Below, piece after piece: positions 12,739-61,725 of a stretch of 64,000 nt of DNA (positions within the stretch are counted from its first letter, which is position 1; every line of letters begins with the position of its first letter). The position numbers and the translations under genes are program-made. A model generated the notes under the pieces. The model worked only from the letters and a program-made list of their open reading frames with translations, did not search any database and had not been told where the DNA came from. This DNA comes from Siniperca chuatsi (lineage: Eukaryota; Chordata; Actinopteri; Centrarchiformes; Sinipercidae), in the NCBI RefSeq assembly GCF_020085105.1, contig NC_058046.1:1953175-2017174 (forward strand), written 5' to 3'.

Positions 12739-12918
12739 CTCAGGTTGTGGCATGTTGATATACAGTATACAGGGCTGCCCCCCCCCCAGCAGCAGCAGCA
12801 GCAGCTGAGGTTACACAGTTGAGAGAAACTCTTCAGATCAGCGGCTGCGTGTGTGTGGGAGGAAGACAGTACTTTATTTTTCGCGGATTATTAAAAATAG
12901 AATCGTTTCTTTTGAGTC

Positions 12919-17894
<4,976 letters not shown>

Positions 17895-22261: not shown

Positions 22262-24585
22262 TCACATGAGAATAATGCTGCAGACTGATGGGAGATGAGA
22301 ATCGCACTGCGTTTCATTCAAGCACCCCGACACGTTTTCTGTAAGTGCCAAAAACACAGGAGTCAGTGAGCTCAACACAAACGAAGACCTTAACCTATCT
22401 GATGATGCATCACTATGTACAAAGACTATGGAAATATTCCAGGGGAAATGACATTGTTCTGCACAACGGCATCGCCACACACAGTTTCAGGCAGAAACCA
22501 CTGTGGTGTGTAATTCTCATATGACTTAAATTTACAGCTGCATCAGTAAGTTACTCATCAATGTCAAAACCATATTAGATAATGCAATACTGTGTATGGA
22601 TAACCATGAACTGATTTGATACTCGGATTGATTTACCTCCAGAGGGTTGAAAACAGAAGTGCTCACGCTCATCAGATGTCCAGTCAAAAATACTCCAGGA
22701 CCAAGAAGGATCCTGTGAGGCAAAATATAATGTAATACATTGCTATATTACTATATAAGATATTACTTGGATTAAAATGAATGAATTGAATATTGTTTAA
22801 AAAGCAGTCAAACCTCATGTAATAGTATATACCTCTGTATCACAGCCTCCAACCCATACGTCTCCAGAATTATAGCCAGCACTCTGAATCAGCTTTTGAA
22901 CGTCATCAAAGGACTCAGCGTCGCCTGCAAATGCAAGGTTTCCACCCATGGACCGGCAGTTTTCCTACAGTGGAGACAAACAAACAGAGTGATGTCACCA
23001 AGAAAAGCAACCTTAGTAATAGGACATCAACAGAAGATGCCAATTAACCAAGTAAATACAGAGTTAACTTAGTGTAGAAACGTTCTGCTTTGAATAAAGA
23101 ATCATCCGGATTACCTGAGCTTCATCCCAAGTCATGCTTTCTGCAACGTAGCGGAGACAACGAATAGTGAATGTAGTCCAACCATCAGGACAAGATGGAA
23201 ACCAGGGTTCATCTGAAGACAAATACAGACAAGAGGTTAATATCGAGTCACCAGGGGAGTTACAAGAATATGTAGAGGCAGTTTTTCTCTCTCAGGAAAA
23301 CATTTTGACAAAGTGTGTTGCATTTTTGCAAATACCTAAAAGTATATATACACCAACCTATTACTGGAGTTGGAACTGGAGTCCAGATGTCTCCATCTGT
23401 ATAAGCTGGACAGTTTGACATAGCAGTTATTATAGACATCTGCTCTTATTTATTTTATTGTTATTTCATTGTATTTATATTCACATCATTACAAATCTGA
23501 GGAAATATACACTCACGATCAACCATAATGTCCTGTGTCACAGGCTCGTCCTCTGTTTCTGGAAGAGCTGGAAGGACAGTTTGACACACCAGTGAGCAGT
23601 GGTGGAGGAAGCACGCACATCCTTTACTTAAAGGAATAGTTTGACATTTTGGGAAACACTCTTATTCACTTTCTGGCAGAGATAAAGCCAGGCTAGCTGT
23701 CTTAATGCTAAGCTAATCAGCTACTGCTGTAGCTTCATATTTAGCGTACAAACATGAGTGACATCAAGCTTCTCGAACTCTCAGCAAGAAAGCGAATAAG
23801 AGTTTTTTTAAAAATGTCTAACTGTTAGTAAAAGTGATGATAATACAATATGAAAATAATCTGTTACAAGTGTAAGTCCTGCATTAAAAGTTTTCTTTAA
23901 GTAAAAACACAGAAGTATTATCAGCAAGATGGACATGAAGTATCAAAAGTAATGTAATAATCCAGAATTACCCTTGATACAGTATTATTATAGATAGATA
24001 GCAGCTATATTATAGGCTAATAGCATATATTATTGGATTATAATTATGATGCATTCATGTTTAAGCAACATTTTAATCTTGTAGCTGGGTGAGGTGGAGT
24101 TAATTCTATCTACTTTATGTACTGCTGTGTAGTTTAATCTATAACAATGCATCGACGCTGTCCCATGTATGTAACTACAAATTTTGTCATTTTGAATTTT
24201 TGTGTTCCTTTATGGGTTGAAAAAATGATCCTACTTCTTCAGCTAAATGAACCATTTAAAAACCTTGTCTGAAAAATATAGAATCATAAAGTTTAAAACA
24301 GCTCATCAAAAGTTGACACAAAATCTTCATCTGTAAAGTAAGTAATAACTATAGCTGACAGATAAATGCAGTGGAGTCAAAAGTACAACATTTCACTCTG
24401 AATGTAGTGAAGTAGAAAGAAGCCGAAAATGGAAATACTCAAGTAAAATACACGTACTTCAGAAAATTTTCTCATGTTTAGTACTTCAATAAATGACATC
24501 TCACCACTGCCAGTAAATACTCACGAGTAGCTCTGGTCAGAGCCATCATGGCACACACAAACACGGACACAATCAGCATCTTCAT
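22262..24585 (-). CDS. Secreted C-type lectin-domain protein, copy A (7 coding exons)
   Basis: Minus-strand exons: 24525-24585 (E1), 23517-23567 (E2), 23358-23405 (E3), 23115-23212 (E4), 22833-22964 (E5), 22637-22712 (E6) and 22262-22338 (E7). All borders are GT-AG and phases agree, giving 180 aa. E1 is a signal peptide ([20 protein letters not shown]). E2 and E3 encode an acidic then Pro/Thr-rich stalk ([30 protein letters not shown]). E4-E7 form a [38 protein letters not shown] (WIGL position), and [10 protein letters not shown] at the end. The EPN/QPD and WND motifs are absent, so ordinary calcium-dependent sugar binding is doubtful. The fold resembles small secreted fish lectins of the ladderlectin/type II antifreeze kind. 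Ligand unknown. Confidence 0.82.
23625..23830. repeat. MITE-like element between lectin A exons E1 and E2
   Basis: It starts near AGGAATAGTTTGACATTTTG and ends near AAAATGTCTAACTGTTAG, which are imperfect inverted termini. The inside carries GCCAGGCTAGCTGTCTTAATG. Longer copies lie in gene B (about 36400-36830 and each later repeat unit) and gene C (about 53738-54155), so it was present before the duplications. Confidence 0.6.
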
Positions 24586-34281: not shown

Positions 34282-37200
34282 TCACATGAGAATAATGCTG
34301 CAGACTGATGGGAGATGAGAATCGCACTGCGTTTCATTCAAGCACCCTGACACCTTTTCTGTAAGTGCCAAAAACACAGGAGTCAGTGAGCTCAACACAA
34401 ACGAAGACCTTAACCTATCTGATGATGCATCACTATGTACAAAGACTATGGAAATATTCCAGGGGAAATGACATTGTTCTGCACAACGGCATCGCCACAC
34501 ACAGTTTCAGGCAGAAACCATTGTGGTGTGTAATTCTCATATGACTTAAATTTACAGCTGCATCAGTAAGTTACTCATCAATGTCAAAACCATATTAGAT
34601 AATGCAATACTGTGTATGGATAACCATGAACTGATTTGATACTCGGATTGATTTACCTCCAGAGGGTTGAAAACAGAAGTGCTCACGCTCATCAGATGTC
34701 CAGTCAAAAATACTCCAGGACCAAGAAGGATCCTGTGAGGCAAAATATAATATAATACATTGCTATATTACTATATAAGATATTACTTGGATTAAAATGA
34801 ATGAATTGAATATTGTTTAAAAAGCAGTCAAACCTCATGTAATAGTATATACCTCTGTATCACAGCCTCCAACCCATACGTCTCCAGAATTATAGCCAGC
34901 ACTCTGAATCAGCTTATGAACGTCATCAAAGGACTCAGCGTCGCCTACAAATGCAAGGTTTCCCTGCATGGACCGGCAGTTTTCCTACAGTGGAGACAAA
35001 CAGACAGAGTGATGTCACCAAGAAAAGCAACCTTAGTAATAGGACATCAACAGAAGATGCCAATTAACCAAGTAAATACAGAGTTAACTTAGTGTAGAAA
35101 CGTTCTGCTTTGAATAAAGAATCATCCGGATTACCTGAGCTTCAGCCCAAGTCATGCTTTCTGCAACGTAGCGGAGACAACGAATAGTGAATGTAGTCCA
35201 ACCATCAGGACAAGATGGAAACCAGGGTTCATCTGAAGACAAATACAGACGAGAGGTTAATATCGAGTCTCTAGGGGAGTTACAAGAATATGTAGAGGCA
35301 GTTTTTCTCATTTCTTCATTTTGACCTAAAAGTATATATCCACCAACCTGTTTCTGGAGTTGTAATTGGAGTCCAGCTGTCTCCATCTGTATAAACTGGA
35401 CAATTTGACATAGCAGTTATTATAGACATCTGCTCTTTTATTTAATTTATTGTTATTTCATTGTATTTACAGTGACTTGCAAAAGTGTTTGCCCCCTTCC
35501 TGATTTCTTATTTTTTTGCATGTTTGTCACACTTAAATGTTTCAGATCATCAAACAAATTTAAATATTAGTCGAAGATAACACATGTAAACACAAAATGC
35601 AGCTTTTAAATGAAGGTTGTTATTAGTGAATACAAAATCCAAACCTACATGGCCCTGTGTGGAAAAGTGATTGCCCCCGTGAACCTAATAACTGGTTGGG
35701 CCACCCTTAGCAGCAACAACTGCAATCAAGGGTTTGCGATAACTTGCAATGAGTCTTTTACAGCACTGTGGAGGAATTTTTGCCCACTCATCTTTGCAGA
35801 ATTGTTGTAATTCAGCCACATTGGAGGGTTTTCAAGCATGAACTGCCTTTTAAGGTCATGCCACAGCATCTCAATAGGATTCAGGTCAGGACTTTGACTA
35901 GGCCACTCCAAAGTCTTCATTTTGTTCTTCATCCAGCAAGAAAGCGAATAAGAGTATTTCTAAAAATGTCTAACTGTTCCTTTTAGTAAAAGTAATGATA
36001 ATACAATATGAAAATAATCTGTTACAAGTATAAGTCCTGCATTAAAAGTTTTTCTCTCTCTGGAGAACATTTTGACAAAGTGTGTTGCATTTTTGTAAAT
36101 ACCTAAAAGCATATATCCACCAACCTGTTTCTGGAGTTGTAAATGGAGTCCAGCTGTCTCCATCTGTATAAGCTGGACAGTTTGACATAGCAGTTATTAT
36201 AGACATCTGCTCTTTTATTTATTTTATTGTTATTTCATTGTATTTATATTCACATCATTACAAATCTGAGGAAATATACACTCACGATCAACCATAATGT
36301 CCTGTGTCACAGGCTCGTCCTCTGTTTCTGGAAGAGCTGGAAGGACAGTTTGACACACCAGTGAGCAGTGGTGGAGGAAGCACGCACATCCTTTACTTAA
36401 AGGAATAGTTTGACATTTTGGGAAACACTCTTATTCACTTTCTGGCAGAAACTTAGATGAAAAGGTGGAAACCACTCTCATGTCTCTTAAACATGAAGTT
36501 CTAGCCAGCAGCTGTTAGCTTAGATTAACTGGAAACAGCTAGCCCCAGCTATCCGGCACATAACCCTGTAAAACATTATTTGTATACTTTTTTTAGGGAT
36601 TAAACAAACAAGACCTAACGCGTAAATGAATGTGCTTTAGAGGTGCTGGTATTTTGTAAACATTGGATAAAGCCAGGCTAGCTGTCTTAATGCTAAACTA
36701 ATCGGCTACTGCTGTAGCTTCAAATTTAGCGTACAAACATGAGAGTGACATCAAGCTTCTCATCGAACTCTCAGCAAGAAAGCGAATAAGAGTATTTCTA
36801 AAAATGTCTAACTGTTCCATTTAGTAAAAGTAATGATAATACAATATGAAAATAATCTGTTACAAGTGTTAGTCCTGCATTAAAAGTTTTTCTCTCTCTG
36901 GAGAACATTTTGGCAAAGTGTGTTGCATTTTTGTAAATACCTAAAAGTATATATCCACCAACCTGTTTCTGGAGTTGTAATTGGAGTCCAGCTGTCTCCA
37001 TCTGTATAAGCTGGACAGTTTGACATAGCAGTTATTATAGACATCTGCTCTTTTATTTATTTTATTGTTATTTCATTGTATTTACAGTGACTTGCAAAAG
37101 TGTTTGCCCCCTTCCTGATTTCTTATTTTTCTTGCATGTTTGTCACACTTAAATGTTTCAGATCATCAAACAAATTTAAATATTAGTCAAAGATAACACA

Positions 37201-40200
37201 AGTAAACACAAAATGCAGTTTTTAAATGAAAGTTGTTATTAGTGAATACAAAATCCAAACCTACATGGCCCTGTGTGAAAAAGTGATTGCCCCCTAAACC
37301 TAATAACTGGTTGTGCCACCCTTAGCAGCATCAACTGCAAACAAGCATTTGCGATAACTTGCAATGAGTCTTTTACAGCGCTGTGGAGGAATTTTTGCCC
37401 ACTCATCTTTGCAGAATTGTTGTAATTCAGCCACATAGGAGGGTTTTCAAGCATGAACTGCCTTTTTAAGGTCATGCCACAGCATCTCAATAGGATTCAG
37501 GTCAGGACTTTGACTAGGCCACTCCAAAGTCTTCATTTTGTTCTTCATCCAGCAAGAAAGCGAATAAGAGTATTTCTAAAAATGTCTAACTGTTCCTTTT
37601 AGTAAAAGTAATGATAATACAATATGAAAATAATCTGTTACAAGTATAAGTCCTGCATTAAAAGTTTTTCTCTCTCTGGAGAACATTTTGACAAAGTGTG
37701 TTGCATTTTTGTAAATACCTAAAAGCATATATCCACCAACCTGTTTCTGGAGTTGTAAATGGAGTCCAGCTGTCTCCATCTGTATAAGCTGGACAGTTTG
37801 ACATAGCAGTTATTATAGACATCTGCTCTTTTATTTATTTTATTGTTATTTCATTGTATTTATATTCACATCATTACAAATCTGAGGAAATATACACTCA
37901 CGATCAACCATAATGTCCTGTGTCACAGGCTCGTCCTCTGTTTCTGGAAGAGCTGGAAGGACAGTTTGACACACCAGTGAGCAGTGGTGGAGGAAGCACG
38001 CACATCCTTTACTTAAAGGAATAGTTTGACATTTTGGGAAACACTCTTATTCACTTTCTGGCAGAAACTTAGATGAAAAGGTGGAAACCACTCTCATGTC
38101 TCTTAAACATGAAGTTCTAGCCAGCAGCTGTTAGCTTAGATTAACTGGAAACAGCTAGCCCCAGCTATCCGGCACATAACCCTGTAAAACATTATTTGTA
38201 TACTTTTTTTAGGGATTAAACAAACAAGACCTAACACATAAATGAATGTGCTTTAGAGGTGCTGGTATTTTGTAAACATTGGATAAAGCCAGGCTAGCTG
38301 TCTTAATGCTAAACTAATCGGCTACTGCTGTAGCTTCAAATTTAGCGTACAAACATGAGAGTGACATCAAGCTTCTCATCGAACTCTCAGCAAGAAAGCG
38401 AATAAGAGTATTTCTAAAAATGTCTAACTGTTCCATTTAGTAAAAGTAATGATAATACAATATGAAAATAATCTGTTACAAGTGTTAGTCCTGCATTAAA
38501 AGTTTTTCTCTCTCTGGAGAACATTTTGGCAAAGTGTGTTGCATTTTTGTAAATACCTAAAAGTATATATCCACCAACCTGTTTCTGGAGTTGTAATTGG
38601 AGTCCAGCTGTCTCCATCTGTATAAACTGGACAATTTGACATAGCAGTTATTATAGACATCTGCTCTTTTATTTAATTTATTGTTATTTCATTGTATTTA
38701 CAGTGACTTGCAAAAGTGTTTACCCCCTTCCTGATTTCTTATTTTTTTGCATGTTTGTCACACTTAAATGTTTCAGATCATCAAACAAATTTAAATATTA
38801 GTCGAAGATAACACATGTAAACACAAAATGCAGCTTTTAAATGAAGGTTGTTATTAGTGAATACAAAATCCAAACCTACATGGCCCTGTGTGGAAAAGTG
38901 ATTGCCCCCGTGAACCTAATAACTGGTTGGGCCACCCTTAGCAGCAACAACTGCAATCAAGGGTTTGCGATAACTTGCAATGAGTCTTTTACAGCACTGT
39001 GGAGGAATTTTTGCCCACTCATCTTTGCAGAATTGTTGTAATTCAGCCACATTGGAGGGTTTTCAAGCATGAACTGCCTTTTTAAGGTCATGCCACAGCA
39101 TCTCAATAGGATTCAGGTCAGGACTTTGACTAGGCCACTCCAAAGTCTTCATTTTGTTCTTCATCCAGCAAGAAAGCGAATAAGAGTATTTCTAAAAATG
39201 TCTAACTGTTCCTTTTAGTAAAAGTAATGATAATACAATATGAAAATAATCTGTTACAAGTATAAGTCCTGCATTAAAAGTTTTTCTCTCTCTGGAGAAC
39301 ATTTTGACAAAGTGTGTTGCATTTTTGTAAATACCTAAAAGCATATATCCACCAACCTGTTTCTGGAGTTGTAAATGGAGTCCAGCTGTCTCCATCTGTA
39401 TAAGCTGGACAGTTTGACATAGCAGTTATTATAGACATCTGCTCTTTTATTTATTTTATTGTTATTTCATTGTATTTATATTCACATCATTACAAATCTG
39501 AGGAAATATACACTCACGATCAACCATAATGTCCTGTGTCACAGGCTCGTCCTCTGTTTCTGGAAGAGCTGGAAGGACAGTTTGACACACCAATGAGCAG
39601 TGGTGGAGGAAGCACGCACATCCTTTACTTAAAGGAATAGTTTGACATTTTGGGAAACACTCTTATTCACTTTCTGGCAGAAACTTAGATGAAAAGGTGG
39701 AAACCACTCTCATGTCTCTTAAACATGAAGTTCTAGCCAGCAGCTGTTAGCTTAGATTAACTGGAAACAGCTAGCCCCAGCTATCCGGCACATAACCCTG
39801 TAAAACATTATTTGTATACTTTTTTTAGGGATTAAACAAACAAGACCTAACGCGTAAATGAATGTGCTTTAGAGGTGCTGGTATTTTGTAAACATTGGAT
39901 AAAGCCAGGCTAGCTGTCTTAATGCTAAACTAATCGGCTACTGCTGTAGCTTAAAATTTAGCGTACAAACATGAGAGTGACATCAAGCTTCTCATCGAAC
40001 TCTCAGCAAGAAAGCGAATAAGAGTATTTCTAAAAATGTCTAACTGTTCCATTTAGTAAAAGTAATGATAATACAATATGAAAATAATCTGTTACAAGTG
40101 TTAGTCCTGCATTAAAAGTTTTTCTCTCTCTGGAGAACATTTTGGCAAAGTGTGTTGCATTTTTGTAAATACCTAAAAGTATATATCCACCAACCTGTTT

Positions 40201-42428
40201 CTGGAGTTGTAATTGGAGTCCAGCTGTCTCCATCTGTATAAGCTGGACAGTTTGACATAGCAGTTATTATAGACATCTGCTCTTTTATTTATTTTATTGT
40301 TATTTCATTGTATTTACAGTGACTTGCAAAAGTGTTTGCCCCTTCCTGATTTCTTATTTTTCTTGCATGTTTGTCACACTTAAATGTTTCAGATCATCAA
40401 ACAAATTTAAATATTAGTCAAAGATAACACAAGTAAACACAAAATGCAGTTTTTAAATGAAAGTTGTTATTAGTGAATACAAAATCCAAACCTACATGGC
40501 CCTGTGTGAAAAAGTGATTGCCCCCTAAACCTAATAACTGGTTGTGCCACCCTTAGCAGCATCAACTGCAAACAAGCATTTGCGATAACTTGCAATGAGT
40601 CTTTTACAGCGCTGTGGAGGAATTTTTGCCCACTCATCTTTGCAGAATTGTTGTAATTCAGCCACATTGGAGGGTTTTCAAGCATGAACTGCCTTTTTAA
40701 GGTCATGCCACAGCATCTCAATAGGATTCAGGTCAGGACTTTGACTAGGCCACTCCAAAGTCTTCATTTTGTTCTTCATCCAGCAAGAAAGCGAATAAGA
40801 GTATTTCTAAAAATGTCTAACTGTTCCTTTTAGTAAAAGTAATGATAATACAATATGAAAACAATCTGTTACAAGTATAAGTCCTGCATTAAAAGTTTTT
40901 CTCTCTCTGGAGAACATTTTGACAAAGTATGTTGCATTTTTGTAAATACCTAAAAGTATATATCCACCAACCTGTTTCTGGAGTTGTAATTGGAGTCCAG
41001 CTGTCTCCATCTGTATAAGCTGGACAATTTGACATAGCAGTTATTAAAGACATCTGCTCTTTTATTTATTTTATTGTTATTTCATTGTATTTATATTCAC
41101 ATCATTACAAATCTGAGGAAATATACACTCACGATCAACCATAATGTCCTGTGTCACAGGCTCGTCCTCTGTTTCTGGAAGAGCTGGAAGGACAGTTTGA
41201 CACACCAGTGAGCAGTGGTGGAGGAAGCACGCACATCCTTTACTTAAAGGAATAGTTTGACATTTTGGGAAACACTCTTATTCACTTTCTGGCAGAGACT
41301 TAGATGAAAACGTGGAAACCACTCTCATGTCTCTTAAATATGAAGTTCTAGCCAGCAGCTGTTAGCTTAGATTAACTGGAAACAGCTAGCCCCAGCTATC
41401 CGGCACATAACCCTGTAAAACATTATTTGTATACTTTTTTTAGGGATTAAACAAACAAGACCTAACGCGTAAATGAATGTGCTTTAGAGGTGCTGGTATT
41501 TTGTAAACATTGGATAAAGCCAGGCTAGCTGTCTTAATGCTAAGCTAATCGGCTACTGCTGTAGCTTCAAATTTAGCGTACAAACATGAGAGTGACATCA
41601 AGCTTCTCATCGAACTCTCAGCAAGAATGCGAATAAGAGTTTTTTAAAAAATGTCTAACTGTTCCTTTTAGTTAAAGTGATGATAATACAATATGAAAAT
41701 AATCTGTTACAAGTGTAAGTCCTGCATTAAAAGTTTTCTTTAAGTAAAAACACAGAAGTATTATCAGCAAGATGGACATGAAGTATCAAAAGTAATGTAA
41801 TAATCCAGAATTACCCTTGATACAGTATTATTATAGATAGATAGCAGCTATATTATAGGCTAATAGAATATATTATTGGATTATAATTATGATGCATTCA
41901 TGTTTAAGCAACATTTTAATCTTGTAGCTGAGTGAGGTGGAGTTAATTCTATCTACTTTATGTACTGCTGTGTAGTTTAATCAATAACAATGCATCTATG
42001 CTGTCCCATGTATGTAACTACAAATTTTGTCATTTTGAATTTTTGTGTTCCTTTATGGGTTGAAAAAATGATCACACTACTTCAGCTAAATGAACCATTT
42101 AAAAACTGTGTCTGAAAATGATACAATCATAAAGTTGAAAACAGCTCATGAAAAGCTGACACAAAATCTTCATCTGTAAAGTAAGTAATAACTATAGCTG
42201 ACAGATAAATGCAGTGGAGTCAAAAGTACAACATTTCACTCTGAATGTAGTGAAGTAGAAAGAAGCCGAAAATGGAAATACTCAAGTAAAATACACGTAC
42301 TTCAGAAAATTTTCTCATGTTTAGTACTTCAATAAATGACATCTCACCACTGCCAGTAAATACTCACGAGTAGCTCTGGTCAGAGCCATCATGGCACACA
42401 CAAACACGGACACAGTCAGCATCTTCAT
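34282..42428 (-). CDS. Secreted C-type lectin-domain protein, copy B, with amplified stalk exons
   Basis: Ends as in copy A: E1 42368-42428 ([20 protein letters not shown]), E4 35135-35232, E5 34853-34984, E6 34657-34732, E7 34282-34358. Between E1 and E4 there are four E2 copies (41133-41183, 39518-39568, 37902-37952, 36286-36336) and eight E3 copies (40972-41019, 40195-40242, 39357-39404, 38579-38626, 37741-37788, 36963-37010, 36125-36172, 35348-35395). The transcript order is (E2-E3-E3)x4. E2 is 51 nt, E3 48 nt, both phase 1-1, and all copies read keep GT-AG sites and frame. Full inclusion would give 343 aa with a long Pro/Thr/acid stalk ([14 protein letters not shown] units), probably extended and O-glycosylated. 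Actual exon use is unknown. The CTLD lacks EPN and WND motifs, as in copy A. Confidence 0.75.
35470..35935 (-). mobile_element. Tc1-like transposon 3' fragment, array unit 1
   Basis: A terminal sequence CAGTGACTTGCAAAAGTGTT is followed on the minus strand by the end of a Tc1 transposase ([19 protein letters not shown], with the third catalytic acid of the DDE triad). The N-terminal two thirds are absent. It lies between two E3 exons. Confidence 0.85.
37086..37552 (-). mobile_element. Tc1-like transposon 3' fragment, array unit 2
   Basis: Same fragment as at 35470, sharing the GCCCCCTAAACC variant with unit 4. Confidence 0.85.
38702..39166 (-). mobile_element. Tc1-like transposon 3' fragment, array unit 3
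   Basis: Nearly identical to the 35470 copy, sharing its GCCCCCGTGAACC variant. Confidence 0.85.
40317..40782 (-). mobile_element. Tc1-like transposon 3' fragment, array unit 4
   Basis: Nearly identical to the 37086 copy; one C is missing in the run near 40340. Confidence 0.85.
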
Positions 42429-43423: not shown

Positions 43424-44043
43424 CAGCAGGTAAAATAAGTATTATACACATCACCATTTTTCTCAGTAAATATATTTCTAAAGGTGCTATTGACATGAAA
43501 TTTTCACCAGATGTTGGTAACAACTCATGAAATCCACACATGCAGAGAAATCTAACCATAGATGTCCATATATTAAGTTATAATACGGTGTAGTCCCTCA
43601 TTCGTCCAGGAGTGTTCTATCGTAGAAAAGGTTTCAGTCGTAGTCATCTGGACACTGTTTTCAGAATCAATTGATTCTGAAAACAGTGTCCAGATGAACT
43701 CTGTCTATGTGTCTATGAACTCTGACCTCAGGTGATTGGCTGGGCCATTCCAGCAGCTTTATTTTCCTTCTCTGAAACCAACAGAGCATTTCCTTGGCTG
43801 TGTGTTTGGGATCGGGCCAACTGGCCAAAATCACACTGTGACACATGACACTGAGTCATTAACATTACAACTTAATTTATGGACATCTATGGTTTGATTT
43901 CTTTGCATGTGTGGATTTCATGAGTTGTTACCAACATCTGGTGAAAATTTCATGTCAATAGCACCTTTAGAAATATATTTACTGAGAAAAATTAGGAGAG
44001 AAAAAGAGAAAAATTACGTGTTCAATACTTATTTTACCTGCTG
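43424..44043. mobile_element. Internally deleted Tc1-like element, unit B
   Basis: Both inverted terminal repeats are present (CAGCAGGTAAAATAAG.. and its complement), flanked by TA at 43422-43423 and 44044-44045. Inside remain only a MITE hairpin and a scrap of transposase sequence (about 43720-43830) homologous to 58618-58715 in unit C. Confidence 0.85.
43610..43705. repeat. Foldback MITE fragment inside Tc1
   Basis: GGACACTGTTTTCAGAATCA is followed at once by TTGATTCTGAAAACAGTGTC, a near-perfect palindrome. The left arm matches the start of the 452-bp foldback element at 61819-62270. Confidence 0.8.
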
Positions 44044-44095
44044 TATTTCCTTCAGGAGCTGCTGGAGACCAAACACAGAGTTAAAAGGAAAGTGA

Positions 44096-44974
44096 ATTGG
44101 ACTTAAATTCACATGCATGTTGCTCTGTGTCTGCAGGATGTTTAAGTTGGCAGTTGTTTTACTGACACGTTGCAGCGTAAGATCAACAGGCGTCAGCAGT
44201 TAAGCGGGCAATGTACCAAACCGTCATGGTGAACAAGAATTACATTTCTGACATTGTGTATATTTGGTTTTGCACCTCACTGATAATCTTTATTCTTATA
44301 GTTTGTTTATTTTGCAGTCTTTCCTTCTGCTGCTGTTGCACAACAGTTTCCCTCAGAATAAATATCGTGCTATCATGTCTGATCCCTTTGTATCCCTTGT
44401 CTTAACCTCTGATCCGTGCTTCATCCAATGCATGAGTCAACTTCTTTATCACCCTCTGAATCACACGGTATTACATGGTACTGATACAAGGCTTGCACCA
44501 ATGGACTGGGGGCAGCGAGAGTGGAGTTGCCAAGAAAAATAAATAATGGGAGGATACCAGCTGGTCCGGCTTTCAGGTTTAGCTTCTCCTCACGCTCAAT
44601 CTGACGTGTTGGAATTAATTCTGCCTGTATTGTTAATTGTGATATTTGAAAAAACATACAAATATGTTTGCACGGGCCCCGGGAGAAGAAGGCTGTGAAA
44701 ATGTGAAATGATTGCAGCAAAATGTATCACCTCATGTCACGACCTGAGGACAGCCAGTGGAACCTGACAAACACAGCTATACGACTTCTTTTTTCATAGT
44801 TTTTTATTTATTTATATATCAGTCAACCTGGTTGGTCGGCCTATGATTTATCTGGTTCATTCAAACCTGAACAATATACATGATTTGATTTGTAAGTAAT
44901 GTAATGATTATGCCAAATACACAACCACCCAGGACACACTCACTTACAACATCAACACACACTTCCACAGTCTT

Positions 44975-45032
<58 letters not shown>

Positions 45033-46325
45033 CAAGTGTTCATAGTTTTAGATGAATTGTGCTTTCTTTCCTTTTCTTTTAATCTTATTATTACTCGATG
45101 CTTTGGCGATATTGTCTTTGTTACACTCGTGCCAATAAAGCGTACTGAAGTGAACTGAACTGACTGCAAGCGCTCTGCCCATTCTACAGGATTCTGACTT
45201 TTGTGTGAAGTTGGGGTTAAAAAGTATCCCAGCATGCATTTCATGACAACTGCAGCACTGGTGGAGGAAACGAGCCTATAATGTTGCATCCCCCCACATG
45301 TGAAGGTGTGACTGATAAATGTGCTGTGCTGCTCTTCAGGCTCTGTGGGCCTCGGCCTCAGTTCCTCCTCCTCTCTCATGCTATTGGCTGGTGAATTTGG
45401 GGACCTGCAGCCAATCACAATCCCTACAGAAAGGCTGAGGAGAGAGTGTTTGTGTACTGCGAGCTGTTTTGTCAGGACCTAGTGAAGAGCTCTTTTGCAT
45501 GTTGTTGTCAGGTTGGAAGTGATTGTGCTGTTCAATTTCAGTTCATCAATTATTAAGTTATTAAGTTAGTTACCTGTTTTTTGTATCTTAACAACTTCCT
45601 TTAACTCCTTGCCAGGAAGCCCCGTAGAGGAGAGCTGCCATTTTAGTTACATTCCCTTTTCTCCTGTTTTTTGTGTTGACAGGGAGTCAGCTTTAGGATT
45701 GTAACTTTGCTTTGTGGGTAGTTTTGAAGTTTTAGATCTAAAACTGAAAAAGCTACTCAACCGGGAGGACCCCCACCCGTTGCTCCAGCAGTCTGAGGAA
45801 GCAAAAGCAAGAGGGCATGTTCCAAAGTTTAGTACAAAGTTCCACCTTTGTGTTAGGATCCCTCCACTGAAGCTCAGCAAGGAAACACTGTTTGCTGAAG
45901 CACAAAGAGGGAGCTTCGTACTAAAGACACCCACGTGTTTTGTCTATCTCAGACCGCTTCGGCTGAACTTGAGAATGTAGTTTTATGGTGAACATGATGA
46001 AAGTAGACGTAGACAGGAAGTTTCTCTGGGCAGCAGAAACTTCCTGTGATGGGCCTGTCCTGAGAAATGCTCAGGACAATAATTACCAGTTTGTCCAGAT
46101 GTTAGAACAGTGATTTGTGTTTCTAATAGATGTGTGACAAGATACTCTCAACTCAAAAGTAAACTTCTTCAGAAGATTGCAACCACATCCCAGGGCCTTC
46201 CTTACTGGTATCAGCTGTAAAGCTCAAACCAATGTCCGACTCACTGTGGGCCTCGTGCACGCAGGTAGCTCTTTAAGATGTGTCTTTTTTTGGAACAGTA
46301 CATATTATTATATAGTACAAAGTCC
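44096..46325. other. Non-coding duplicated block, unit B (homologous to 59839-64000)
   Basis: It matches 59839-60390 and then 61725-64000 of unit C, apart from insertions in C. AATAAA near 44538 could end the coiled-coil gene transcript. An 88-codon frame at 45714-45980 is kept in C (63440-63706) but has no recognisable domain. A CA microsatellite lies at 44979-45029. Confidence 0.5.
44979..45029. repeat. (CA)n microsatellite
   Basis: An uninterrupted CA run, much shorter and broken by a T in the unit C counterpart (about 62737-62760). Confidence 0.97.
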
Positions 46326-48539: not shown

Positions 48540-49232
48540 TACCCAGTACTCCCTGTACTCCTGGCACCACTGGTACTCCTGATACCACTGGTACTCGTGG
48601 TACCCCCGGTACCCCTGGTACTCCCGGTAGTCTGTATTTTATTATGGGCTCAACTATTGGCTTTGCTGCTTTGGTGTCTATTCCTGCTGTTGTCTTTGTT
48701 GTGTAGAAATGGAGAAAAAAGAAATTCAGTAAGTCACACATTTTTTGACTGATTTTTGAGTTTAATTTCATCTGGTGCTATTAAAGTTTGGTTTTGGTGG
48801 AAATGTACTCTCATATCATCAATGAAACTGTCAGAAGATAATATTATTTTGTGTTATTTTGAAATGAACTGATATTCTGTAATACTTAAAATTTCACCAG
48901 CTGATGTTTTCAGTAGTGTCCTTTTTCAAATCATTTTCAGTCTTGTAATTTTTTAAGTTTCTTCAGTTTCATGCCATTACAAAACACTAACAGAACATTT
49001 CATTACAAACTTCACCGGTTTCTCCTGCTTCTCTATTCACACAGAAAACAAGAGGAGGAGCCACGAGGATGGACCTGAACAGACCGATGAAGAAAAGGCA
49101 GTCACATCTAAGAGTGATAACACAGGATTCCAGGTCGTGATGGAAGGAGAAGGAGAAGGTGTACCGCTTATGGCAGGAAGACAGGAAGAGACTACTGTGG
49201 ACAATGGAGGAGAAGATCGAATCTCAAAGTGA
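48540..49232 (+). pseudogene. Receptor stalk/transmembrane and tail exons, unit C
   Basis: Exon 48540-48728 (acceptor TTCATAG, donor TTCA|GTAAGT, phase 1-1) encodes a Thr/Pro/Gly repeat stalk (TPGTTGTPDTTGTRGTPG..) made from GGTACYCCY-type repeats, then one hydrophobic membrane span (IMGSTIGFAALVSIPAVVFVV). A TAG at 48704-48706 follows at once, before the basic stop-transfer stretch KWRKKKF. Exon 49045-49232 joins in phase and encodes an acidic tail (HEDGPEQTDEEKAV..VPLMAGRQEETTVDNG..). The layout is that of a type I membrane receptor. The stop would remove the tail, so I call it a pseudogene, although a tailless product is possible. No ectodomain exon was recognised. Confidence 0.55.
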
Positions 49233-51222: not shown

Positions 51223-54200
51223 TCACATGAGAATAACGCTGCAGACTGATGGGAGATGAGAATCGCACTGCATTTCATTCAAGCACCCCGACACGTTTTC
51301 TGTAAGTGCCAAAAACACAGGAGTCAGTGAGCTCAACACAAACGAAGACCTTAACCTATCTGATGATGCATCACTATGTACAAAGACTATGGAAATATTC
51401 CAGGGGAAATGACATTGTTCTGCACAACGGCATCGCCACACACAGTTTCAGGCAGAAACCACTGTGGTGTGTAATTCTCATATGACTTAAATTTACAGCT
51501 GCATCAGTAAGTTACTCATCAATGTCAAAACCATATTAGATAATGCAATACTGTGTATGGATAACCATGAACTGATTTGATACTCGGATTGATTTACCTC
51601 CAGAGGGTTGAAAACAGAAGTGCTCACGCTCATCAGATGTCCAGTCATAAAAACTCCAGGACCAAGAAAGATCCTGTGAGGCAAAATATAATATAATACA
51701 TTGCTATATTACTATCTAAGATATTACTTGGATTAAAATGAATGAATTGAATATTGTTTAAAAAGCTGTCAAACCTCGTGTAATAGTATATACCTCTGTA
51801 TCACAGCCTCCAACCCATATGTTTCCAGAATTATCGCCGGCACTCTGAATCAGCTCATGAACGTCATCAAAGGACTCAGCGTCGCCTACAAATACAAGGT
51901 TTCCATCCATGGACCGGCAGTTTTCCTACAGTGGAGACAAACAGACAGAGTGATGTCGCCAAGAAAAGCAACCTTAGTAATAGGACATCGACAGAAGATG
52001 CCAATTAACCAAGTAAATACAGAGTTAACTTAGTGTAGAAACGTTCTGCTTTGAATAAAGAATCATCCGGATTACCTGAGCTTCATCCCAAGTCATGCTT
52101 TCTGCAACGTAGCGGAGACAACGAATACTGAATGTAGTCCAACCATCAGGACAAGATGGAAGCCAGGGTTCATCTGAAGACAAATACAGACAAGAGGTTA
52201 ATATCGAGTCACCAGGGGAGTTACAAGAATATGTAGAGGCAGTTTTTCTCTCTCAGGAAAACATTTTGACAAAGTGTGTTGCATTTTTGTAAGTACCTAA
52301 AAGTATATATACACCAACCTATTACTGGAGTTGGAACTGGAGTCCAGATGTCTCCATCTGTATAAACTGGACAATTTGACATAGCAGTTATTATAGATAT
52401 CTGCTCTTTTATTTATTTTATTGTTATTTCATTGTATTTATATTCACATCATTACAAATCTGAGGAAATATACACTCACGATCAACCATAATGTCCTGTG
52501 TCACAGGCTCGTCCTCTGTTTCTGGAAGAGCTGGAAGGACAGTTTGACACACCAGTGAGCAGTGGTAGAGGAAGCACACACATCCTTTACTTAAAGGAAT
52601 AGTTTGACATTTTGGGAAACTTAAAAAGGCAGTTCATGCTTGAAAACCCTCCAATGTGGCTGAATTACAACAATTCTGCAAAGACGAGTGGGCAAAAATT
52701 CCTCCACAGCGCTGTAAAAGACTCATTGGAAGTTATCGCAAACCCTTGATTGCAGTTGTTGCTGCTAAGGGTGGCCCAACCAGTTATTAGGTTTAGGGGG
52801 CAATCACTTTTTCACACAGGGCCATGTAGGTTTGGATTTTGTTTTCCCTTAATAATAACAGCCTTCATTTAAAAACTGCATTTTGTGTTTACATGTGTTA
52901 TCTTTGACTAATATTTAAATTTGTTTGATGATCTGAAACATTCAAGTGTGATAAACATGCAAAAAAAATAAGAAATCAGGAAGGGGGCAAACACTTTTGC
53001 ACACCACTGTATGTTCACGTCATTACAAATCTGAGGAAATATACACTCACGATCAACCATAATTTCCTGTGTCACAGGCTCGTCTTCTGTTTCTGGAAGA
53101 GCTGGAAGGACAGTTTGACACACCAGTGAGCAGTGGTAGAGGAAGCACACACATCCTTTACTTAAAGGAATAGTTTGACATTTTGGGAAACTTAAAAAGG
53201 CAGTTCATGCTTGAAAACCCTCCAATGTGGCTGAATTACAACAATTCTGCAAAGACGAGTGGGCAAAAATTCCTCCACAGCGCTGTAAAAGACTCATTGG
53301 AAGTTATCGCAAACCCTTGATTGCAGTTGTTGCTGCTAAGGGTGGCCCAACCAGTTATTAGGTTTAGGGGGCAATCACTTTTTCACACAGGGCCATGTAG
53401 GTTTGGATTTTGTTTTCCCTTAATAATAACAGCCTTCATTTAAAAACTGCATTTTGTGTTTACATGTGTTATCTTTGACTAATATTTAAATTTGTTTGAT
53501 GATCTGAAACATTCAAGTGTGATAAACATGCAAAAAAAATAAGAAATCAGGAAGGGGGCAAACACTTTTGCACACCACTGTATGTTCACGTCATTACAAA
53601 TCTGAGGAAATATACACTCACGATCAACCATAATTTCCTGTGTCACAGGCTCGTCTTCTGTTTCTGGAAGAGCTGGAAGGACAGTTTGACACACCAGTGA
53701 GCAGTGGTGGAGGAAGCACGCACATCCTTTACTTAAAGGAATAGTTTGACATTTTGGGAAACACTCTTATTCACTTTCTGGCAGAGACTTAGATGAAAAG
53801 GTGGAAACCACTCTCATGTCTCTTAAATATGAAGCTCATGTTAGCTTAGATTAACTGGAAACAGCTAGCCCCAGCTATCCGGCACATAACCCTGTAAAAC
53901 ATTATTTGTATACTTTTTTTAGGGATTAAACAAACAAGACCTAACGCGTAAATGAATGTGCTTTTGAGGTACTGGTATTTTGTAAACATTGGATAAAGCC
54001 AGGCTAGCTGTCTCAATGCTAAGCTAATCGGGTAATCGCTGTAGCTTCATATTTAGCGTACAAACATGAGAGTGACATCAAGCTTCTCGTCGAACTCTCA
54101 GCAAGAAAGTGAATAAGAGTATTTCTAAAAATGTCTAACTGTTCCTTTTAGTAAAAGTAATGATAATACAATATGAAAATAATCTGTTACAAGTGTAAGT

Positions 54201-54869
54201 CCTGCATTAAAAGTTTTATTTAAGTAAAAACACAAGTATTATCAGCAAGATGGACATGAAGTATCAAAAGTAATGTAATAATCCAGAATTACCCTTGATA
54301 CAGTATTATTATAGATAGATAGCAGCTATATTATAGGCTAATAGAATATATTATTGGATTATAATTATGATGCATTCATGTTTAAGCAACATTTTAATCT
54401 TGTAGCTGGGTGAGGTGGAGTTAATTCTATCTACTTTATGTACTGCTGTGTAGTTTAATCAATAACAATGCATCTATGCTGTCCCATGTATGTAACTACA
54501 AATTTTGTCATTTTGAATTTTTGTGTTCCTTTATGGGTTTAAAAAATGATCCTACTTCTTCAGCTAAATGAACCATTTAAAAACCTTGTCTGAAAAATAT
54601 AGAATCATAAAGTTGAAAACAGCTCATGAAAAGCTGACACAAAATCTTCATTTGTAAAGTAAGTAATAACTATAGCTGACAGATACAGTAAATGCAGTGG
54701 AGTCAAAAGTACAACATTTCACTCTGAATGTAGTGAAGTAGAAAGAAGCCGAAAATGTAAATACTCAAGTAAAATACACGTACTTCAGAAATGCCAGTAA
54801 ATACTCACGAGTAGCTCGAGTCAGAGCCATCATGGCACATACAAACACGGACACAGTCAGCATCTTCAT
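51223..54869 (-). CDS. Secreted C-type lectin-domain protein, copy C (triplicated E2)
   Basis: Exons: E1 54809-54869, E2 53622-53672, 53051-53101 and 52480-52530, E3 52319-52366, E4 52076-52173, E5 51794-51925, E6 51598-51673, E7 51223-51299; 214 aa if all are used. Splice sites and phases are kept. The signal peptide is [20 protein letters not shown]-like. Two of the E2 copies read [16 protein letters not shown], with Glu for Asp. The CTLD differs from copy A at several places (for example [46 protein letters not shown]), the most diverged of the three. EPN and WND motifs are absent. E2 copies 2 and 3 lie in a 571-bp tandem repeat that includes a Tc1 fragment. Confidence 0.78.
52441..53582. 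repeat. 571-bp tandem duplication in lectin C (E2 plus Tc1 fragment)
   Basis: 52441-53011 and 53012-53582 are nearly identical. Each unit holds one E2 exon, the start of the intronic MITE, and a Tc1 3' fragment (about 52619-53005 and 53190-53576) with ends TTAAAAAGGCAGTTCATGC and ACTTTTGCACACCACTGTA. The Tc1 piece is inverted relative to those in gene B. Confidence 0.92.
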
Positions 54870-55867: not shown

Positions 55868-58800
55868 CAGCAGGTAAAATAAGTATTGAACATGTCACCA
55901 TTTTTCTCAGTAAATATATTTCTAAAGGTGCTATTGACATGAAATTTTCACCAGATGTTGGTATCAACTCATGAAATCCACACATGCAGAGAAATCAAAC
56001 CATAGATGTCCATAAATTAAGTTATAATGTTAATGACACAGGGATAAAGTATTGAACACGCTTACTGAAATTCATATAATACTACTACAAAATCCTTTAA
56101 ATGCAACCACAAGGGGGCACAAGCCAGTGTCTTCTTGTGCCAGTCCCAAGTCTGGATAAATGCAGAGGGTTGTGTCAGGAATGGCATCTGACGTAAAGCA
56201 CATGCCAAATTAAAAATGCAAATTGTGAAAATGACTTCCATACCGGATCGGTCGGGGCCCGGGTTAACAAAGGCCGCCACCGGTGCTGTTGACCCACAGG
56301 GTACCGGTGGAAATTGAACTACTGTTGGTCAAAGACGAAGAAGGAGAGGAGGAAGGTGTGTTCGTAGGCAGAGAGAGAAGAGGAAAGCTAAGAATGTAGG
56401 ACTGACAGTAGGGACTTTGAATGTTGGGACTATGACAGGGAAGGCTAGAGAGTTGATTGACATGATGCAGAGAAGGAAGGTGGAAATACTGTGTGTCCAG
56501 GAGACCAGGTGGAAAGGTAGCAAGGCTAGGAGCTTAGGAGCAGGGTTCAAGTTGTTCTACCATGGGTCAGATAGGAAGAGAAACGGAGTAGGAGTTATCC
56601 TGAAAGACGAGTTTGTGAGGAATGTTCTAGAGGTGAAAAGAGTATCAGACAGGTTGATGAGTCTGAAGCTGGAAATTGAAGGGGTGATGTTCAATGTTGT
56701 GAGTGGTTATGCCCCACAGGTAGGATGTGAGTTAGAAGAGAAGGAGAAATTCTGGAGTGAGTTAGATGAAGTGATGCAGAGCATCCCCAGAGGTGAGAGA
56801 GTGGTGATTGGTGCAGATTTCAATGGGCATGTAGGTGAAGGGAACAGAGGTGATGAGAATGTGATGGGCAGGTTTGGTCTTCAGGACAGGAACGCAGAAG
56901 GACAGATTGTGGTAGACTTTGCAAAGAGGATGGAAATGGCTGTAGTGAACACTTTCTTCCAGAAGAAGCAGGAACATAGGGTGACATATAAGAGCGGAGG
57001 TAGAAGTACTCAGGTGGACTACATCTTGTGTAGACGTTGTAATCTGAAAGAGAACAGTGACTGTAAAGTAGTGGTAGGGGAGAGTGTAGCCAGACAACAC
57101 AGGATGGTAGTGTGTAAAATGTCTCTGGTGGTGAGGAAGATGAAGAGGACAAAGGCAGAGCAGAGAACGAAGTGGTGGAAGTTGAAAAAGGAAGAATGTC
57201 GTGTAGTTTTCAGGGAGGAGCTGAGAAAGACTCTGGGTGGTCAGGAAGTGCTCCCAGATGACTGGACCACTACAGCTACTGTGATCAGGGAGAAAGGTAG
57301 GAGGGTACTTGGTGTGTCATCTGGCAAGAGGAAAGTGGACAAGGAGACTTGGTGGTGGAACGAGGAAGTTCAGGAGTGTATACAGAGAAAGAGGTTAGCT
57401 AAAAAGAAGTGGGACACTGAGAGGACTGAAGAGAGTACACAGGAGTACAGGGAGATGCAGTGTAAGGTGAAGGTAGCAAGACCAAAAGTGAAGTGAGGAG
57501 GATGTTGAAGAGGACGTTGAAGAGTGGAAAGGCAGTTGGTCCTGATGACATACCTGTGGAGGTATGGAAGTGTCTTGGAGAGGTGGCAGTAGAGTTTCTG
57601 AGTTTCTCTAGTTTGTTTAATAAGATCTTGGAGAGTGAGAGGATGCCCGAGGAATGGAGGAGAAGTGTACTGGTGGCAATTTTTAAGAACAAGGGTTGTG
57701 GGAAAGAGTAGTGGAAGCTAGGCTAAGGGCAGAGGTGAGCATTTGTGAGCAGCAATATGGTTTCATGCCTAGAAAGAGTACAACAGATGCACTATTTGCT
57801 TTGAGGATGCTGATGGAGAATACATGTGTGTCAATGGGAGGGACCCAGGTGGAATGGTGAGGTTACAGGGAGCAGAGGTGAAGAAGGTGCAGGACTTTAA
57901 GTACTTAGGGTCAACGGTTCAGAGCAATGGAGACAGTGGAAAAGAGGTGAAGAGGCGAGTGCAAGCAGGTTGGAACGGGTGGAGAAAAATGTCAGGTGTG
58001 TTGTGTGATAAAAGAGTATCAGCAAGAATGAAAGGAAAGGTGTTCAAGACGGTGGTGAGACCAGCGATGTTGTACAGCTTAGAGACAGTGGCACTGAAGA
58101 AAAGACAAGAGGCAGAGCCGGAGGTAGCAGAGCTTAAGATGTTGAGGTTCTCTTTTGGAGTGACGAGGATGGACAGGATCAGGAATGAGTACATCAGAGG
58201 GACAGCTCATGTTAGATGTTTCAGAGATAAAGTCAGAGAGGCCAGATTGAGGTGGTTTTGACATGTTCAGAGGAGAGACTGTGAATATATTGGTAGAAGG
58301 ATGCTGAGGTTGGAGCTGCCAGGCAGGAGATCTAGAGGAAGACCAAAGAGGAGATTTATGGATGTAGTGAGAGAGGACATGAAGCTAATTGGTGTGAGTG
58401 AAGAGGATGCAGAGGACAGGGTTAGATGGAGGAACATGATTCACTGTGGCGACCCCTGAAAGGGAACAGCCGAAAGGAAAAGAAGAAGACTACTACAAAA
58501 GCCTTTGTTGGTAATGACTGCTTCAAGATGCCTCCTGTATGGAGCAACGAGTTGCATGCATTGCTGAAGTGTGATTTTGGCCCGTTCTTCCACACAAACA
58601 GTCTTCAAATCTCTTCTATGAACTCTGACCTCAGGTGATTGGCAGGACCATTCAGCAGCTATATTTTCCTTCTCTGAAACCAACAGAGTTTCCTTGGCTG
58701 TGTGTTTCGGATCATTGTCTTGCTGAAATGTCCACCCTCGTTTCATCTTCATCATCCTGGTAGATGGCAGCAGATCTTTATCAAGAATGTCTCTGTACAT

Positions 58801-59786
58801 TTTCCCATTCATCCTTCCTTCAATTACATGAAGTTTGCCAGTACCGTATGCTGACAAACACACCATGATGTTTCCACCTCCAAACTTCACTGTTGGTGTG
58901 GTGTTTTGGGGGTGATGTGCAGTGCCATTTCTCCTCCAAACACGGTGTGTATCATGACATCCAAAGAGTTCAATTTTGGTCTCATCTGACCAGACTATAT
59001 TCTCCCAGTATGTCACAGGCTTGTCCAAATGTTGTGCAGCAAGCTTTAAACAGGCTTCAACATGCTTTTTCTTCAGTAATGGAGTCTTGCGTGGTGAGCG
59101 TGCATACAGGCCACGGCGGCTGAGTGCATTACTTGTCGTTTTCTTCAAAACAATTGTACTTGCTAATTCCAGGTCCTTCTGAAGCTGTCCACAAGCTGTC
59201 TTGAACAACTCTTCTGATAATTCTTTTCACTCAGGAGCATCTGGTCGTGGCCAGATGGTGGTGAAATGATGTTCTTTCCACTTCCGGATTATGGCCCCAA
59301 CAGTGCTCACTGGAACATTCAGAAGTTTTGAAATCCTTCTGTAACCAATGCCATCAGTATGTTTTGCAACAATAAGGTTGCAAGCTCTTTGCTTTTACCC
59401 ATCATGAGATGTCTCTTTTGTGACACCTTGGTGATGAGACACCTTTTTAGAGGCCATCAGGTGGGACTGAACCAGCCGATACTAATTTGCACTGACAAGG
59501 GGCAGGATTGCTTTCTAATTACTGATTATCTTGGCTTCCCATGCCCTTTTGCACCTCCCTTTCTTCATGTGTTCAATACTTTTTCCCTGTGTCATTAACA
59601 TTTTAACACATAACTTAATATATGGACATCTATGGTCAGATTTCTTTGCATGTGTGGATTTCATGAGTTGTTACCAACATCTGGTGAAAATTTCATGTCA
59701 ATAGCACCTTTAGAAATATATTTAAAAAGAAAAATTAGGAGAGAAAAAGAGAAAAATTACATGTTCAATACTTATTTTACCTGCTG
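55868..59786 (-). mobile_element. Tc1-like transposon with nested RTE LINE, unit C
   Basis: Inverted terminal repeats of about 195 bp (CAGCAGGTAAAATAAG.. at both ends) flanked by TA. The minus-strand transposase runs from about 59400 to 58495; its open part (58441-59208) shows [31 protein letters not shown] (first catalytic Asp) and [11 protein letters not shown] (second). The expected DLNPIE segment with the third catalytic acid is deleted ([17 protein letters not shown]), and upstream frames are broken, so it is inactive. Confidence 0.9.
56100..58487 (+). mobile_element. RTE-type LINE inserted in Tc1, RT core deleted
   Basis: A 5' leader (GTGTCAGGAATGGCATCTGA type) precedes an apurinic-like endonuclease frame at 56417-57496 with CVQETRWKG, VVIGADFNGHVGEGN and STQVDYILCRR. 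RT starts at 57493 (GKAVGPDDIPVEVWKCLG), but the block with the YADD active site is missing around 57705-57830. A C-terminal part follows (57824-58440: DFKYLGSTVQSNGD, IRGTAHVRCFRDKVREARL). The tail is TGTGGCGACCCCTGAAAGGG then AAGAAGA. Flanking ACTACTACAAAA (about 56083 and 58490) is a probable target-site duplication. Confidence 0.88.
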
Positions 59787-59838
59787 TATTTCCCTCAGGA
59801 GCTGCTGGAGACCAAACACAGAGCTAAAAGGAAAGTGA

Positions 59839-60394
59839 ATTGGACTTAAATTCACATGCATGTTGCTCTGTGTCTGCAGGATGTTTAAGTTGGCAGTTGT
59901 TTTACTGACACGTTGCAGCGTAAGATCAACAGGCGTCAGCAGTTAAGCGGGCAATGTACCAAACCGTCATGGTGAACAAGAATTACATTTCTGACATTGT
60001 GTATATTTGGTTTTGCACCTCACTGATAATCTTTATTCTTATAGTTTGTTTATTTTGCAGTCTTTCCTTCTGCTGCTGTTGCACAACAGTTTCCCTCAGA
60101 ATAAATATCGTGCTATCTTGTCTGATCCCTTTGTATCCCTTGTCTTAACCTCTGATCCATGCTTCATCCAATGCATGAGTCAACTTCTTTATCACCCTCT
60201 GAATCACACGGTATTACACGGTACTGATACAAGGTTTGCACCAATGGACTGGGGGCAGCGAGAGTGGAGTTGCCAAGAAAAATAAATAATGGGAGGATAC
60301 CAGCTGGTCCGGCTTTCAGGTTTAGCTTCTCCTCACGCTCAATCTGACGTGTTGGAATTAATTCTGCCTGTATTGTTAATTGTGATATTTGAAA
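59839..60394. other. Non-coding duplicated block, unit C left part
   Basis: It matches 44096-44660 closely, including AATAAATAATGGG near 60282. No domain is recognised in its short open frames. Confidence 0.45.
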
Positions 60395-61725
60395 AAACAC
60401 ACAAGATCATTTTAAATGGGTAAATCAAACTATTAAATTACATATTTGATATGCTTGTAATGTATTATCCCCTGTACAGTCAAAGGAAGCTTTATTGTCT
60501 CTAACCCACATAGCAGACGGATCTGTCCCATAAATGGTTCAAGTCGGCACTGACATAAGGCATATGAGCCAAGTCTGAATTGATGGCCCCCTTTTTAAGA
60601 TGGCAAGAAAGATATGGGCTGTCTGTTGCACAAACCACCACAAACAAATCAAATAGCCACTTTTAGGAAAAGAATTTTAATAAACTGTTTTCAAACAATG
60701 AAAGATTTTAAATTTGAGTGATGAAAACAATGTATGCACATAAGTTTATTTGATTACCACTTTTCTGCAAGTTTGAAACAAGTGTTGACTGGAGCCAGTT
60801 TTCTGAGGAAATGTTGCTGCGGGGGGCAGCACTTCACTCCAGAGACGTTCAAAGGCCTTTCTCTGAGGTCCTGTCTGTACTTCTGTCCTCGTGGATTTGC
60901 AAAACGTCATCAGTCACGACCCAAATATTGTCCCAATCAAAGTCTGTTTAGTCTAGAACGCTCCAAGTGACTGAATAGAAAAGTGAATTGTACAGTAATA
61001 TTACAATGATCAATACAATATATACACTAAATGGAAAACTCTGGAGGCAGTGAGAGAAAACCACCAGAACCCTCTAGATAGAAAGCATCCAATCCCTGAA
61101 AACAAAAAAGGCTTGTGGAACTGATCCTCAACGAACTGATCAAATTCTCAGACCATAAAATCAAAATGGCTGTACTCAAACTATTCAGTACAAGTCTATC
61201 AGTTGGCACCTTTCCAGACATCTGCAACAAAGGTTTAATAAGCCCAATTCATAAATAGAGATAAATATGACCCAATTAACTACCTGGTATCTGTGACACT
61301 AGTAGTCTGGGAAAAATATTCTGCAGCATCATTAACAAACGAATTGTCCACAAGGACAACGTTTTACACAAATGTCAAATTCCTGCACAGCAGACCCGAT
61401 ATTTACCCTGCACTTTAACTGGTCGAGAATGAAACAGAACGAAAAGAAAGGTCTGCGCCTGTTTTGTTGATTTCAGAAAAGCTTTCGATTCCATCGGACA
61501 CGAGGGCCTTTTCTATTGGCTCATTGAAAATGGCATATGATTTGATGAAGGACATGTAGACAAAAAGCAAATGTGCTACCAGACAGCCTCAGGACCACAA
61601 TCAGACCAAAGCAAAATATCAGCCAACAAAAAGAAAACTATATCGCATGTTGGAAGGAAACAACACAGATTAAAAATGCACCCTAAATTTGAAAACATAA
61701 CAGACATATTTACATGGGGACATGT
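60395..61725. other. Segment present in unit C but not unit B
   Basis: Relative to unit B this block is extra. It carries the decayed LINE piece listed next and otherwise AT-rich sequence without genes. Insertion in C or deletion in B are both possible. Confidence 0.5.
61060..61560 (+). mobile_element. Decayed non-LTR reverse transcriptase fragment
   Basis: Scattered frames give KKACGTD.., LFSTSLSVGTFPDICNKGLI, IINKRIVHKDN and FVDFRKAFDSIGHEGLFYWL, the order of motifs seen in LINE RT domains. Frame shifts and stops are frequent. The clade is uncertain. Confidence 0.7.

Follow-up and report, generated by a model that had tools for sequence, protein, structure and literature searches.

A recently grown tandem array of symmetric mini-exons in the linker of a putatively secreted C-type lectin-like domain gene of Siniperca chuatsi

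We analysed a 64,000-base stretch of the Siniperca chuatsi genome (the window; contig NC_058046.1, here C5, positions 1953175–2017174) that contains three sister genes (A, B and C) for proteins with a C-type lectin-like domain (CTLD). Between the signal-peptide exon and the CTLD exons of gene B lies an array of twelve mini-exons, which is real in the assembly, young and tidy. We favour, with moderate confidence, the reading that these exons multiplied recently and in tandem within a putatively secreted CTLD gene related to the type II antifreeze-like group, and that part of the array is spliced in. If at least part of it is included, as seems most likely, the CTLD of gene B would be carried by a spacer that is acidic, rich in Thr and Pro and at most 196 residues long; its splicing, its secretion, an extended conformation of the spacer and any benefit from it are what we infer from the genomic sequence.

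Anatomy of the gene B exon array

When both strands of the window were scanned with up to 20 mismatches allowed, eight copies of one mini-exon (E2) and ten of another (E3) were recovered, on the minus strand only. Gene B accounts for four E2 and eight E3, arranged in the order (E2–E3–E3)×4; the layout proposed in the initial annotation (four E2 exons of 51 nt and eight E3 exons of 48 nt, all of phase 1-1) was thus seen both in the scan and in the exon model. The gene, read on the minus strand, begins with a signal-peptide exon (42368–42428; 61 nt, ending in phase 1), in which the signal peptide was recognized by its look and by likeness to the sister genes. E2 copy 1 (41133–41183; 51 nt) is followed by E3 copies 1 (40972–41019; 48 nt) and 2 (40195–40242), E2 copy 2 (39518–39568) by E3 copies 3 (39357–39404) and 4 (38579–38626), E2 copy 3 (37902–37952) by E3 copies 5 (37741–37788) and 6 (36963–37010), and E2 copy 4 (36286–36336) by E3 copies 7 (36125–36172) and 8 (35348–35395). 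The CTLD is encoded by four exons (35135–35232, 34853–34984, 34657–34732 and 34282–34358, the last including the stop codon), and one short-array isoform matched Pfam PF00059 (Lectin_C) at 31.6 bits against a curated cut-off of 22.6 (E = 2.9e-7).

All 12 array exons are preceded by AG and followed by GT, measure 51 or 48 nt and have phase 1-1, and the spliced model comprises 17 coding exons in a single open frame of 343 amino acids. The array exons are adjacent, homologous, of equal phase and spliceable in register, as expected of a tandem duplication of symmetric exons. When every inclusion pattern of the 12 exons was assembled in silico, 4096 of 4096 were in frame and free of stop codons, which bears out the earlier claim that any number of exons keeps the frame; the predicted precursors range from 147 to 343 amino acids in 45 distinct lengths. 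Variable inclusion of the array exons is therefore possible. The array can add between 0 and 196 residues, so the stalk length first given (about 33 to about 196 residues) was right at its maximum but not at its minimum, 33 being the sum of one E2 and one E3.

Proposed growth of the array

The array consists of four copies of a 1.6-kb unit with pairwise differences of 0.15 to 1.83% (the fourth compared over 1.3 kb), a closeness that rules out chance repeats. A 22-base junction, at which the sequence 3′ of E3 runs into the sequence upstream of E2, is present at seven places in gene B, behind every E3 except the last, and was found nowhere else in the window at ≤1 mismatch; with gene A as a stand-in for the parent stretches, these share about six bases at the junction. 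Every second E3 of gene B lacks its own E2; in its place, at a TA that matches the E2–E3 intron, stands the terminal part of a Tc1-like element. This end part lies at 35462–35930, with further copies at 37077–37546, 38693–39162 and 40309–40777; the piece from the copy at 38.7–39.2 kb matches Pfam DDE_3 (E = 2.4e-7), and a second Tc1-like piece gave no match to Pfam.

The variable sites among the units record how they are related. Of 29 such sites, 15 group units 1 and 3 against units 2 and 4, which indicates that the last step was the doubling of a 3.2-kb pair; private sites number 9 in unit 1, 3 in unit 3 and 2 in unit 2. Over 3184 bases the first and second halves of the array are 99.2% identical, and between units 2 and 4 there are differences at 2 of 1313 sites, which is within the range of allelic differences. 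Such closeness would also fit an artefact of assembly or haplotype, in which two alleles were joined, or a stretch was falsely repeated, to give the last doubling, and the true haplotype has two units, but the window has no N, the assembly comprises 65 contigs for 719 Mb, and 9 of the 29 variable sites are private to unit 1; we regard an artefact of this kind as quite improbable.

A separate 571-base unit is repeated in gene C (99.2% alike over 753 bases) and holds E2 together with a fragment of the same Tc1-like family. By our reading of the alignments, the insertions in B and C occupy the same TA of the E2–E3 intron in opposite orientation. The fragment is 93–95% alike to nearly all other scored copies in the genome (40 scored, from 1406 first-look candidates), and the B and C fragments are 94% alike. 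A single insertion shared by B and C was set aside, given the opposite orientation and a B–C likeness no higher than that found genome-wide; because the B–C identity falls within the genome-wide range, independent insertions in the two genes are an equally good explanation.

These observations are consistent with the following course, in which the order of the early steps is what we infer. The signal peptide and the CTLD of the ancestral gene would have been separated by a short linker of two exons (E2 and E3, phase 1-1). In gene B, duplication of the E2–E3 segment would have been the founding step, after which a Tc1-like element may have inserted in one copy, and the E2 of that copy would then have been deleted by rearrangement. 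The resulting E2–E3–E3 unit (1.6 kb) would have doubled, and the 3.2-kb pair doubled in turn. As the exons are symmetric, the linker could lengthen by duplication without damage to the frame.

Age of the linker

An outgroup sample of eight 10-kb stretches, seven of them from contig C22, was examined for the same exons. CTLD exon 1 has good matches at five C22 places (one each in stretches L019, L023 and L024, and two in L020), four of which carry a single E2 of 51 nt and a single E3 of 42 nt; neither E2 nor E3 was found at ≤30% mismatch in L021, L022 and L025. Two C22 genes, which we take to be ladderlectin/nattectin-like, could be modelled in full, with a signal peptide, an E2 of 51 nt, an E3 of 42 nt and four CTLD exons; their CTLD exon 3 measures 112 and 109 nt (76 nt in gene B), and both contain EPN and CWDDMWC. 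Because E2 and E3 occur singly at four of the five CTLD-bearing C22 places, they appear to form an older two-exon linker that existed before A, B and C diverged and was amplified differently in B and C. The difference in E3 length between C22 and the window (42 and 48 nt) is a multiple of three, which speaks for E3 being a genuine exon.

E2 and E3 themselves are likely, although not proven, to be an old duplicate pair: in one C22 gene they have an acceptor stretch and first bases in common, with a score reached by 0 of 2000 shuffles, but by 3 of 2792 other windows within the locus. Among solved structures, one C22 paralogue was closest to the yolk sac IgY receptor precursor (E = 4.8e-51) and lymphocyte antigen 75 (E of about 8e-49), and its match to the sea raven type II antifreeze protein (AFP) 2afp (E = 1.5e-28) was weaker than those to such mannose-receptor-type chains. 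On the opposite strand of L019 are a signal-peptide-like stretch that starts with Ile rather than Met (4193–4243) and a final exon closely similar to the one in A, B and C (9212–9271); these fragments are perhaps relics of an A/B/C-type gene.

Possible use of the array exons

The initial annotation stated that acceptor, donor and open frame are preserved in each exon. This holds for all 12, but is no sign of use, the copies being too young. In a neutral simulation that placed random substitutions on a unit and asked whether all three exons were kept intact, 85, 72 and 67% of the units passed after 15, 29 and 36 substitutions, respectively, and three random indels miss all exons and splice sites with a probability of 0.73. 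Intactness as proof of use was consequently rejected, as young copies mostly stay intact without selection.

Splice sites were scored with a matrix of our own rather than one taken from a tool, and are expressed as percentiles among the sites of the window. On this scale, the acceptors of the CTLD exons (94th–99.6th percentile) and of E2 (96th) rank high. The E3 donors rank higher in B (97th) than in A and C (92nd), which we count in favour of inclusion. A hint of expression comes from the CTLDs, which changed faster than introns between C and A or B. Nonsynonymous changes number 15.0 (C versus A) and 16.0 (C versus B) per 303.7 sites, compared with 7 and 6 intron changes per 568 sites (one-sided Fisher tests with synonymous sites plus introns as neutral, p = 0.00096 and 0.00044; with flanks added, p = 0.015 and 0.005). 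The two positive tests are not independent, because gene C enters both; they suggest, but do not prove, that the heads (CTLDs) are made and under selection and that the genes are expressed. E3 also differs between A and B at a high rate (nonsynonymous 5/36 in three of the four B copies compared and 6 in the fourth, synonymous 0; Fisher p = 0.00026). This was set aside as proof of selection, because the intron adjoining E3 on its downstream side is likewise more divergent than other parts, so that exchange with a more diverged copy would explain the difference.

Several observations weigh against the view that the array is spliced in. Variable sites are distributed between array exons (2 of 147) and introns (27 of 1164) without any conservation excess in the exons (Fisher p = 0.76), and the E3 acceptors reach only the 65th–72nd percentile of AG sites in the window, alike in A, B and C. 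The CTLD excess is not significant between A and B (p = 0.10; 0.31 with flanks) and is absent between the two C22 paralogues (exon 26/422 versus intron 43/920 sites, p = 0.29), and all p values of the rate tests are single-test values, uncorrected for several tests. Nor is the E2–E3 linker strictly kept, since two of the four E2-bearing C22 places have TG instead of AG as the E2 acceptor (L023, 2835; L024, 7098), so that E2 may there be left out or begin nine bases further on, and the fifth CTLD-bearing place (L020, ~4.1 kb) is without E2 and has only an apparent E3 tail.

The array could instead be a passive by-product, that is, real DNA whose extra exons are mostly skipped in favour of a short linker, as presumably in gene A; the copies would still be there only because they are young and do not disturb the frame. 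The weak-looking E3 acceptors, the even spread of variable sites, the survival of most simulated neutral units and the presence in the unit of a piece of an abundant Tc1-like element all fit this account, but the E2 sites look good, and the E3 acceptor is equally weak in A and C, where E3 is single, so that weakness by the matrix need not mean skipping. We hold this explanation to be possible but less probable than partial inclusion of the array. Within partial inclusion, and compatible with it, falls a regulated stalk of variable length, in which weak E3 acceptors would let the exon number vary and one gene yield many spacer lengths. The weak-looking acceptors, the open subsets and the range of lengths they encode would permit such regulation, but they describe what could be made; the copies have almost the same sites and nothing marks which copy to use, and we consider this sub-case unlikely.

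The encoded protein

The full stalk of gene B (196 residues) would contain 48 Thr, 29 Pro, 8 Ser, 28 Asp and 20 Glu and no Lys or Arg, giving a net charge of −48. The earlier suggestion that this Pro/Thr repeat forms an extended spacer is plausible from its Thr/Pro-rich and acidic composition; O-glycosylation of the spacer, also raised there, is conjectural. Among solved chains, the gene B CTLD is closest to 2afp (E = 3e-11), and its three internal introns lie at the places stated for the soluble AFP-like group of fish (exon borders compared by eye with PMC514892). Its 8 Cys residues fall short of the ten that define type II AFPs proper.

The usual motifs of the sugar site are absent: no EPN, QPD or WND was found in the gene B CTLD, nor, by eye, in those of A and C, which have CLNETQC or CLNEMQC where the C22 genes carry CWDDMWC. 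Gene B thus lacks the EPN/QPD and WND-type motifs by which a Ca2+-dependent sugar-binding C-type lectin is recognized, and because of their absence the classical sugar site has probably been lost. The label 'lectin' in the initial annotation is accordingly doubtful for gene B, as EPN and WND-type motifs are missing although the two modelled C22 paralogues keep both.

Sister genes and the wider locus

Sister gene A (22262–24585, minus strand; open frame of 180 amino acids) has one E2 (23517–23567) and one E3 (23358–23405) in the mismatch scan, and gene C (51223–54869, minus strand; 214 amino acids) has three E2 (53622–53672, 53051–53101 and 52480–52530) and one E3 (52319–52366); both have the same CTLD exons as gene B. 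Larger aligned blocks among the three genes are ~95–97% identical. A genome search with E2 and its flank returned the eight C5 places that belong to A, B and C and two weaker places on C22. When the 3′ part of gene B served as query (36 candidates scored), matches that included E3 were confined to the ten places in the window, all of our genome-search counts being lower bounds. Beside genes B and C, further blocks are duplicated (43859–44661 and 59603–60404, 97.9%; 45004–46274 and 62736–64000, 98.7%); because these adjoin both genes, B and C seem to sit in a larger recent duplication.

Together with the one-copy relatives, the linkers of A (1+1), B (4+8) and C (3+1) form a natural series for spacer growth by exon copying, which could show whether splicing follows the copying of exons; if transcripts carry the copies, repeat number is here set by whole exons. 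A bolder and doubtful extension is a population-variable 'exon accordion', in which sister CTLD genes would set the length of an acidic spacer by gain (duplication) and loss (transposon-linked deletion) of whole exons, whereas their heads, freed from the old sugar site, would diverge under selection.

Elsewhere in the window, a Tc1/Tc3-type transposase open reading frame (ORF) lies at 58441–59226 on the minus strand (261 amino acids, of which 260 were scanned and matched Pfam HTH_Tnp_Tc3_2). An ORF at 12916–13572 on the plus strand had no Pfam match at E 0.01; it presumably resembles exon 1 of lysyl oxidase, with the propeptide and a YNPY-type motif. A repeat of 9, 18 and 27 bases at 48542–48629 has a unit that could read Gly-Thr-Pro, collagen-like by look only.

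Comparison with known systems

The tandem duplication of symmetric exons within the neck of CTLD proteins is known in kind, and gene B adds a variant. The neck repeats of human CLEC4M (L-SIGN) all lie inside one exon and are helical, and the stalk of CD23 (FCER2) includes duplicated exons that are fewer and older than those of gene B. In gene B, by contrast with CLEC4M, every repeat is its own exon, acidic and Thr/Pro-rich. The CLEC4M neck repeats were amplified from exon 4 and vary in number from 4 to 9 in people (PMC3261175), and CD23 is a membrane protein with its CTLD on a stalk of heptad repeats that forms a helical coiled-coil trimer (PMC6791321), unlike gene B.

The C22 paralogues are nearer in layout, having the same order of signal peptide, 51-nt E2, E3 and four CTLD exons (two modelled genes), but they carry one E2 and one E3 each and keep EPN and CWDD. 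The initial annotation knew of no described fish lectin with the gene B layout, and our literature search aimed at it found no fish lectin with such an array of stalk exons; the claim holds to that extent, although there are precedents in kind in smelt AFP (PMC2440524) and CLEC4M (PMC3261175). Closest overall are the soluble fish CTLDs of the type II AFP and AFP-like group, which, like gene B, have a small single CTLD behind a signal peptide. Type II AFPs have a ten-Cys CTLD, and in that of rainbow smelt an extra mini-exon gives rise to an N-terminal extension (both from PMC2440524); gene B departs from them in its 8 CTLD Cys, its short CTLD exon 3 and its twelve linker exons.

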